From assembly GCA_033239005.1 (NCBI GenBank), contig BSQZ01000052.1, forward strand, positions 3,382,501 to 3,446,500: 64,000 nt of DNA. The letters run 5' to 3'. The notes under the pieces are model-generated. The model was not told the DNA's origin. It worked only from the letters and a program-made list of their open reading frames with translations, and ran no database searches. This document shows positions 301 to 9,987 of this stretch, piece by piece. This DNA is from Lamellibrachia satsuma (taxonomy: Eukaryota > Annelida > Polychaeta > Sabellida > Siboglinidae). The translations under genes and the position numbers were made by a program. The number at the start of each line of letters is the position of its first letter. Position 1 is the first letter of the stretch.

Positions 301-3300
301 CAACGATTTATGTTCAAGGATTCGATTGAGATATGCCACACTCTTGGAAAGCTCTCCTGCTGCGGTCACTGTTGTCGCTGTGGACATCGGCCAGTTGAAC
401 GCGCGACGTATCTGTCCGAAGAATTCTTCATCAACCGTAACACTGGATTCACAAACGACAAGATATCAATATATATGTCACGGTCAGTCGGTCGTGGTAC
501 ACATGTTCTTTAATAACAGCAAATGACAACGTGCTTGGTTAGTTTTCAAAATGATTTGCGTATACTGCATGCGTGATGTTAGAAATACATTGTTTATTAT
601 ACAGTAGGTTGAACGTGATAGTTCTATAATAATAATAACAACAAAATAATAACACATCTGCTATAGGGATCCTAGTCAGTTGGAAGTATTTGTGTTTACT
701 GCAATTCAATTTAAAACGCTGCATTTGCAAAACTGTGCACATTTCAACGAATCTCAACTTATGCTTCTGCAATATTTACGCCATAACTCTCTGTGATAAA
801 CATGTCGTTTGGCATAGTTGAACAGAACTACAATGCAATAAAGTATCATTCGCACGTAGGATGAATTGTTATTAAAACTGAGAAACAACAAATTACAGTT
901 CAGATGTTGATTTGGCTTTGCTGTGGGCGGAGGCGATGAGGTCGGCAGCCCGACCGGACCCTGCGATGACCACCACCAGTGTTCCTGTCTCGACGGCTTC
1001 GGCCACCCTTCGTAGTGAGTCCAGACCTCCCTCGAGAACCAACAGCACTACAGGAACGTGGTCGTCTGAGAAATACGATTATAATATACTCTCCAGGTGG
1101 ACTGATCCAAACCAATCCTGCGTTCACACAGTTTTGGACTGAGGTAGTTAATGCGACCTAAGACTAGTCCCGTATTGTGGCCTATGGTCGGTCGACTTCA
1201 CGCAGAGGTAGACTAACTGTTGTATGGCGAACTAGTAGATAAGAAACGTATTTTTTAGGAATATTTACAAAGACGACAATTGAGTAACATTGTACTATTT
1301 ATTATTAAGATAACACTGGCAAATAATAGTAATTGTATATTAAAATAGCACAAATATATGTATCTATATCACTGACCATGTGAACTGGTGAGGGAGACCG
1401 CCAGGTAGCGCTCCAGTTCTAATCGGAAGCGGAGCTCTGTGTCGAACTGTCGTTCAGTTCCGTTGTCGACGAGAAGGAAGTGTGTGTGATTGTGGTCGAG
1501 GGGCACTTTCCCCAGAGGCCGGTCCCAGGCTGGGCTAACGTTGTAGGTGGCAGGGAAGAGGCCGTTACCCTGTAACATGCACGCATGTGACACCGTTGGT
1601 AACGATATGACTGAAATTGTACAACAATAAAGATGAATTTTCCTATAATAACATTTCAGAAATGAATTTCTACCGTCAAACAGCCTCTAGGTGAAATAAA
1701 TTGGATCTAATCTAGACTGCGCTTACCTGATTACCTAAAATACACAACGCATATAAAGTAAACCCTTATGAAAATATACCATCGTATTCCATGGTAAATA
1801 CCATGGTGTATGAAACAGGTAAACCATGATAAACCATGGGAAACCATGGTAAAATACCATGATATACCATGGAAGCCATGGTGTTTTGAAACAGGGAAAC
1901 CATGGTAAAATACCATGGTGTTTTGAAACATGTAAACCATGGTATACCATACATTTGCTATACACAATACATTAAAAAAAGCATGGTCTACGTAATGTCA
2001 TGGTATGCCATGGTTTACCATGTAATATAACGAAATTGTGTATTGTGTATGGCAAATGTATGATATACCATGGTTTACATGTTTCAAAACACCATGATAG
2101 TTATATTCCTATATATATATATATATATATATATATATATATATATATATATATATATATATATATATATATATATATATATATATCTATATATATATAT
2201 ATATATATATATATATGTATATATATGTAGATATATATATGTATATATATATATATATATATATATATATATATATATATATATACATATATATATATAT
2301 ATACATATATGTATATATATATATATATATATATATATATATATATATATATATATATATATATATATATATATAATATATATATATATAGATCAAAAGC
2401 GGTTCACTGATTAATTGAAATGCAACTGACTGAGTAAGATGGCAGACAGGCACCGATGCTATTGCAGTCAATCTACTCACATCGTGCGACATCAGACTGA
2501 GGTTGTTATCGACGACACCCCAGCCGGCGATGCCCAGGGCAACAGGCTCGTGGTCGAACGTTGATGGCACATACTCCCGAAACGCCTCTCCCACCAGGCC
2601 GGAGACGCCGCCGTGGCTGCCGCCACTGACGACCCACGCACCTACGACACACACAGGGGACTCCAATGTTGCACAACACAATGTAGTATAAGGTCAATAT
2701 ACATTATAAAATCTCAAATTACACTTTCCAAATCACGCCCCTTGACACGCCCTATGACACGACATGGCAGTGACAAATCTGTGTTTTGTACGACATAGGT
2801 ATACAGAAAAACATCTTCAACCCGAGAGATAGACTGTCGCGCGGAAGAAAGAAAGATAGCCGGTAGTAAGACGTGAGCTAAAATAGCGCACTTGGGAATG
2901 CCAAAATACCCACTAATTATCTAGTTAATACTGCAACTAATTTTCTATTGTGACTTTTCCTTTGCATTCTCTCATTTTGCCACATTTAAATAATGTTGAG
3001 ACTTTACCTGCTGACGTTGCTGCTCGGACGAGCCCTCGCTTGAAACTTGACCTCAGTTGTCTGCTCATGTGGAAGTCCCTCTCGCCCCCAATAACTGAAA
3101 TGATCAACTTTGGAGGAGGCATGTTCCAATACTTCCTCAGCATGGTCCAGACAATTCCCATCTCAGTTCTGTGGTCCACCCTCGCGTACTGTGAATACAA
3201 AATGATAGGTTTTATGGTCGAAATGCTCATGCTGAAACCACATCGTAGATATATCACATGGAAAAGACTATAACAATCATACATGAAAACGTTTATATTT

Positions 3301-9987: not shown

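Follow-up and report, generated by a model that had tools for sequence, protein, structure and literature searches.

A probable TIR–TRPM gene in the annelid Lamellibrachia satsuma, a candidate chanzyme-like channel

Introduction

Does a single gene of the annelid Lamellibrachia satsuma carry both a TIR domain and the ADP-ribose (ADPR)-binding region of a TRPM channel, and could the one supply the ligand of the other? The question was raised by a stretch of 64,000 nucleotides (contig BSQZ01000052.1, C52:3382501-3446500), called the window below, in which a sequence-only reading had joined ARM repeats, a TIR domain and the TRPM region into one gene. SARM1 makes ADPR (PMC10624580). In PMC11025887 it is suggested that products of SARM1 and other TIR domains might act on TRPM or calcium channels with SLOG-like domains, and the matter is raised there as one that deserves study.

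A survey of metazoan TRPM channels (Morini et al. 2026, PMC13143021) treats the melastatin, Cys-rich, ion channel, NUDT9-H and kinase domains, and the terms TIR, Toll and armadillo did not turn up when its main text was searched for them. A TIR–TRPM fusion was not named in the titles and abstract openings of the open-access literature searched.

Results

Twelve exons in one open frame

The minus strand carried twelve exons within the window, from position 9987 down to 301, at the place and on the strand first proposed and with the same consistent phases. They formed a single open frame. The single chain thus stood as read, and its length was corrected from 922 to 918 residues. All 11 introns had GT-AG borders, and the proposed phase-0 join between the TIR exon (4722) and the first TRPM exon (4364) was reproduced in the open frame. 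Exon 12 closed at a GT donor with no stop in frame. The phase 0 at this donor indicated that the gene continues beyond the window. The features were as follows.

8895..9987, minus strand: exon 1, with the start ATG, an acidic and Ser-rich N-terminus and then an all-helical, possibly armadillo-like region, residues 1-364 (open frame, splice donor, low-confidence model)
8204..8329, minus strand: exon 2, end of the helical region (frame; border kept in the paralog)
7823..7936, minus strand: exon 3, start of the TIR domain, KVFISYEKS... (Pfam TIR_2 411-519)
5058..5165, minus strand: exon 4, middle of the TIR domain, up to the SxxYxxSxxC motif (Pfam, TIR alignments)
4722..4915, minus strand: exon 5, C-terminal half of the TIR domain, with the codon of E481 shared by exons 4 and 5 (alignments; identical split in the paralog)
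4365..4721, minus strand: intron 5, phase 0, 357 bp, the TIR/TRPM fusion joint (no in-frame ATG before exon 6; intron-like divergence)
4285..4364, minus strand: exon 6, first TRPM exon (start of the TRPM2 alignment; same phase-0 border at C26)
3494..3686, minus strand: exon 7, Cys-containing N-terminus of the TRPM part (frame, TRPM2 alignment)
3008..3188, minus strand: exon 8, LSDAT/MHR1-2 (frame, Pfam)
2481..2641, minus strand: exon 9, LSDAT/MHR1-2 (frame, Pfam)
1377..1569, minus strand: exon 10, LSDAT/MHR1-2 with pocket residues F792 and R799 (frame, residue alignment)
897..1065, minus strand: exon 11, LSDAT/MHR1-2 with pocket residue R853 (frame, residue alignment)
301..442, minus strand: exon 12, end of MHR1-2, phase 0 at the donor (frame)

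Only three Pfam families matched the 918 residues at E up to 1. LSDAT_euk covered residues 635-895 (1.1e-59), LSDAT_prok overlapped much of the same region, and TIR_2 covered residues 411-519 (3.9e-8). In a phmmer search of the PDB, MHR1/2 of TRPM2 (7aov) aligned to residues 545-867 (2e-54), and the TRPM similarity started at the first residues of exon 6, directly behind TIR exon 5. The Pfam and PDB matches together bore out the original claim of one reading frame linking a TIR domain to the TRPM ADPR-binding region.

The proposed ARM repeats did not fare as well. Residues 1-406 matched no Pfam family at E up to 1, and no Arm family matched at E up to 1 for this gene or at E up to 5 for its paralog. 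A phmmer search of the PDB with exon 1 gave no match better than E 0.74. A single-sequence AlphaFold model of exon 1 was all-helical and of low confidence (pLDDT 44); with this model, none of 58 Foldseek matches reached E<=0.001, and the assignment of ARM by structure was discarded as uninformative. Because residues 1-406 had no Pfam family and the helical model was poor, we infer rather than assign an ARM character, and describe the N-terminus as a putative 'armadillo-like helical region'.

Elsewhere in the window, inspection by eye showed frames containing recurrent C2H2 zinc-finger patterns at 19300-22798 on the plus strand, a neighbouring gene. Frames of short near-identical repeats, minisatellite-like (for example YQHCHCVSLVLPALS), were present at 43948-46273 (minus strand) and 59287-60073 (plus strand).

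The channel half

The 5,000 bases adjoining the window on the left, the expected place of MHR3 to S1, read N. Further left, seven exons of the same strand (C52:3375836 to 3369188) followed in phase and coded for 400 residues comprising S2, S3-S4, S5-pore, S6, the TRP helix and a coiled coil, and then a stop. What the sequence-only reading had offered as 'possibly channel' was supported by these exons. Pfam detected Ion_trans in the 400-residue stretch (1.1e-15). Exon 12 would continue to S2 across the 5,000 bases that read N.

The best PDB match of the 400 residues was TRPM3 (5.5e-62 over residues 2-377), with TRPM1 and TRPM5 also listed; TRPM2 was not among the matches at E 1e-50 or better. 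Since the pore half ranked TRPM3, TRPM1 and TRPM5 first, the kinship with the ADPR-gated TRPM2 rests on the N-terminal half.

In S2 and S3, EVRQ and WNRFD aligned with EIRQ and WNKCD of TRPM5, a comparison that covered four of the five residues, E1073 being the fifth, of the Ca2+ site characteristic of the Ca2+-activated TRPM2, TRPM4 and TRPM5. Their spacing was that of E843/Q846 and N869/D872, the Ca2+-site residues named in PMC6759353.

The sequence-only reading had proposed to look for TRPM transmembrane and NUDT9-like domains in the DNA to the left of position 1. The former were found, and the latter were not: the stop lay directly after the coiled coil, and no NUDIX family matched in Pfam at E up to 5. 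In the DNA behind (L009-L012, L016), two strict nudix-box patterns gave no hit; four hits of a third, loose pattern were judged irrelevant. The exons from S2 to the stop and the lack of a NUDIX match therefore indicated a TRPM channel without NUDT9-H and with an N-terminal TIR.

Between the S3-S4 and pore exons, endonuclease/reverse-transcriptase-like frames (L009 1-2023, minus strand; by eye) were noticed, another retroelement.

A tandem copy with the same structure

A paralog lay on the same strand, 68 kb further left (C52:3324212-3316160). It kept all 12 exons with their borders and phases, coded for 886 residues without a stop, and was 87.4% identical over 883 aligned codons. The introns of the two copies were 83–92% identical at aligned positions. 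The similarity extended about 0.8 kb upstream of the ATG, which suggested that the gene was duplicated along with its upstream DNA.

Overall dS was 0.169, dN 0.064 and dN/dS 0.38. The ratio was 0.19 for the TIR (bootstrap 0.09-0.42), 0.28 for the TRPM part (bootstrap 0.18-0.45) and 0.43 for the 81 codons around the joint. The N-terminal part was fast-evolving and weakly constrained between the copies, at 0.67 (0.44-1.06). The ratios well under 1 indicate purifying selection on both copies in their TIR and TRPM parts. These ratios, together with the 12 preserved borders and phases, suggested that the TIR–TRPM gene is more than chance. The evidence for conservation of the fusion comes from one genome, and no relative was found in the bacterial and archaeal contigs searched.

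Exons for MHR3, MHR4, S1, S2, S3-S4, the pore and S6 were seen in the paralog. When its channel exons up to the pore were joined by hand, some joints being unproved, the best match, in three pieces, was 6co7 (7.4e-130), a TRPM2-like chain (Nematostella TRPM2). No exon for the TRP helix was detected in the DNA examined for the paralog, which ends at C52:3302001, so the paralog was traced only to S6.

Intron 3 measured 2,657 bp in the gene and 364 bp in the paralog. Within it, at window 5706-6460 on the plus strand and thus antisense, lay reverse-transcriptase-like frames (a LINE remnant, by eye). Given the short paralog intron, this insert is probably younger than the duplication.

The ADPR pocket

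F792, R799 and R853 aligned with Tyr276, Arg283 and Arg339 of the TRPM2 chain 7aov. The usual zebrafish numbers are Y271, R278 and R334. The human residues that contact ADPR, Y295, R302 and R358 (PMC6759353), show the same spacing (7, 56) as the pocket residues. For the choanoflagellate chanzyme, F268 and R275 have been described as essential (PMC11479946), and the Phe in place of Tyr at F792 is likewise found there. Judged from this spacing, the human, choanoflagellate and L. satsuma residues are probably equivalent.

In exon 11 of the paralog (L013 6096-6264, minus strand), GSGQ replaced the GSGR of the present gene, with Gln in place of R853. This change hints that the two copies may differ in their response to ligand.

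A proposed mechanism

The gene product would be a TRPM cation channel with a sensor part closest to that of TRPM2, carrying an N-terminal helical region and a TIR, and lacking a C-terminal NUDT9-H. The helical region would restrain the activity of the TIR, and a stress or infection cue would release it. The TIR domains of the tetramer would next come together and convert NAD+ into ADP-ribose and/or cyclic ADP-ribose, and the product would be taken up by the MHR1/2 (SLOG-family) pocket of that tetramer. Product and Ca2+ at the S2-S3 site would together open the pore and let cations enter.

As a whole, this scheme of a single-chain TRPM channel opened by the ADP-ribose or cyclic ADP-ribose that its own TIR makes is read from the sequence as a tentative proposal, the simplest and the likeliest of the readings considered, quite possible and somewhat short of probable. 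The NADase activity, the product sensing, the gating in cis and the role of the helical region are its predicted elements.

Enzyme or scaffold

The TIR domain carried the motif SxxYxxSxKCRQE. E481 occupied the catalytic-type position, with Lys where Trp is usual (WCxxE-type). The catalytic TIR Glu is required for activity in ThsB (PMC10022894). E481 aligned with the Glu of the Cat1 (E 1.6) and TLR15 (E 0.36) TIRs, both weak matches.

The main rival to the nucleotide mechanism keeps the single gene and makes its TIR a non-enzymatic scaffold, as in TLR and MyD88. TIR–TIR contacts would then bring the channel to immune receptor complexes or cluster it there, and gating would come from assembly and not from a nucleotide product. 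Consistent with this, the best PDB match of the TIR was a TLR TIR, with nothing better than the weak E 0.36, and Lys stood in place of the aromatic residue before the Glu. The TLR TIR in the same comparison also keeps that Glu.

The richness of the genome in TIR genes also speaks for a scaffold: TIR_2 gave 68 matches genome-wide, a large share of them clustered and within long open frames (C11, C52 2.2-2.3 Mb, C10, C24 and others). Three inspected loci (L033-L035) looked TLR-like; they were LRR-TM-TIR by eye and were rejected as stand-alone ARM-TIR relatives. The genome perhaps holds a large expansion of Toll-like receptors.

On the other hand, if no ADPR were made, the ADPR-type pocket of the partner domain would be a coincidence for a scaffold TIR. 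The Glu, moreover, was kept in both copies, and in each its codon straddled the junction of exons 4 and 5. On balance we hold the scaffold to be a serious and rather doubtful reading.

One gene or two

The other way to separate the TIR from the channel is to split the gene. An ARM-TIR-type gene would end in or before intron 5, a TRPM gene would start there, and the matching phases would be luck or occasional read-through. ARM-TIR proteins do stand alone in Aplysia (PMC9334734). Reading through the exon 5 donor gave a 28-residue tail and a stop, and intron 5 of both copies held, inside about 70 identical bases, what could be a mini first exon (MIMY, phase 0). It may be a tiny alternative first exon for a TRPM-only transcript in both.

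Several observations spoke against a split. The read-through tail was 37 residues in the paralog, so that the end points differed. The open stretch before exon 6 contained no ATG in either copy. Intron 5 had diverged as the other introns had (identity 0.907 against 0.83-0.92), and the borders around the joint were preserved in the duplicate. A 3' end and a promoter would also need to fit in the 357-bp gap. Two neighbouring genes are accordingly regarded as improbable.

This block of about 70 bases, midway through intron 5 (window 4365-4721), was identical in both copies amid 91% identity. Chance, gene conversion or a regulatory element could account for it.

A decaying duplicate or an assembly artefact, which transposon-like frames in intron 3 and the flank (by eye) might suggest, is already disfavoured and very improbable, as no stops or frameshifts were found in the 918 + 400 residues, dN/dS for the TIR and for the TRPM part lay well below 1, and a copy of the same structure lay 68 kb away.

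At C26, another TRPM locus, the first common exon had the same start point and phase (AG|AAA, 'KMIAWYVRNNVKHR'). Because C26 shares this phase-0 border, the exon border at which the fusion lies appears to be an old one in TRPM genes, which is what a joining event within an intron would be expected to give. LSDAT_euk gave at least 46 exon-level matches in the 735-Mb genome. The DNA upstream of the first TRPM match or exon was covered at two further loci, C61 (about 21 kb) and C26 (4.9 kb, out of 7.5 kb covered), and tblastn gave no significant ARM or TIR match there, although a diverged one could escape. The fusion was thus present in two of the four TRPM loci examined, and these two are the tandem copies. 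No TIR_2 match was found near other LSDAT loci in the genome-wide search, which is uninformative because the same search also missed the gene's own split TIR exons.

We take the gene structure to be real and very probably that of one gene.

Discussion

From the sequence, a one-gene TIR–TRPM architecture is proposed with high confidence, and a single joined transcript of its TIR and TRPM parts would be expected. The new element is a TRPM channel-enzyme candidate, chanzyme-like, for which the mechanism set out above seems plausible.

The closest comparison is with TRPM2 and the TRPM2 chanzymes of the sea anemone and the choanoflagellate. Like these, the gene has MHR1/2 with ADPR-contact residues, a pore, a TRP helix and a coiled coil, with MHR3/4 seen in the paralog, and it shares with the chanzymes the general idea of enzyme and channel in one chain. 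It differs in having an N-terminal TIR in place of the C-terminal NUDT9-H, and in a pore half that ranks TRPM3, TRPM1 and TRPM5 ahead. The known enzyme module of the TRPM2 chanzyme consumes ADPR (PMC11479946), whereas the TIR would make it.

According to PMC13143021, TRPM-beta-like and TRPM-gamma are lophotrochozoan and other TRPM channels that likewise are without NUDT9-H, and TRPM6 and TRPM7 likewise join a TRPM channel to an enzyme domain, but this is a C-terminal kinase and not a TIR.

On the TIR side, the gene resembles SARM1 in its N-terminal helical region and in a TIR with Glu at the catalytic position. Unlike in SARM1, the TIR is internal and not C-terminal, a channel is attached, and no SAM domain was detected in the 918 residues by Pfam at E up to 1. 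The molluscan ARM-TIR class of Aplysia combines an Armadillo-type fold with a TIR, and no channel is mentioned in the part of PMC9334734 available; the likeness is one of description.

The sequence-only reading had also presented the gene as a metazoan counterpart, in logic, of bacterial TIR plus SLOG-sensor defence pairs such as Thoeris. The analogy of logic holds, in that a TIR product of ThsB is sensed by a SLOG-family domain of ThsA (PMC10022894). The likeness does not extend to architecture: Thoeris consists of two bacterial proteins with a SIR2 NADase as effector, while the present case is a single animal gene with a channel, and Pfam found no SIR2 in its 918 residues.

Two copies of the fusion have been retained and both its TIR and its TRPM part are under selection, which gives a Rosetta-stone style argument that TIR and TRPM act in one shared pathway. 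The pathway may be a self-contained NAD+-to-Ca2+ switch, in which an animal TIR NADase is covalently joined to the channel that its product opens and which would serve as a trigger in immunity or injury; we put this forward as a possibility, with less than moderate confidence. If true, the gene would encode a chanzyme that makes its own ligand, and would be a single-chain animal counterpart of TIR-to-SLOG signalling. The TIR–TRPM gene offers one protein in which to ask whether TIR products act on SLOG-like calcium channels.
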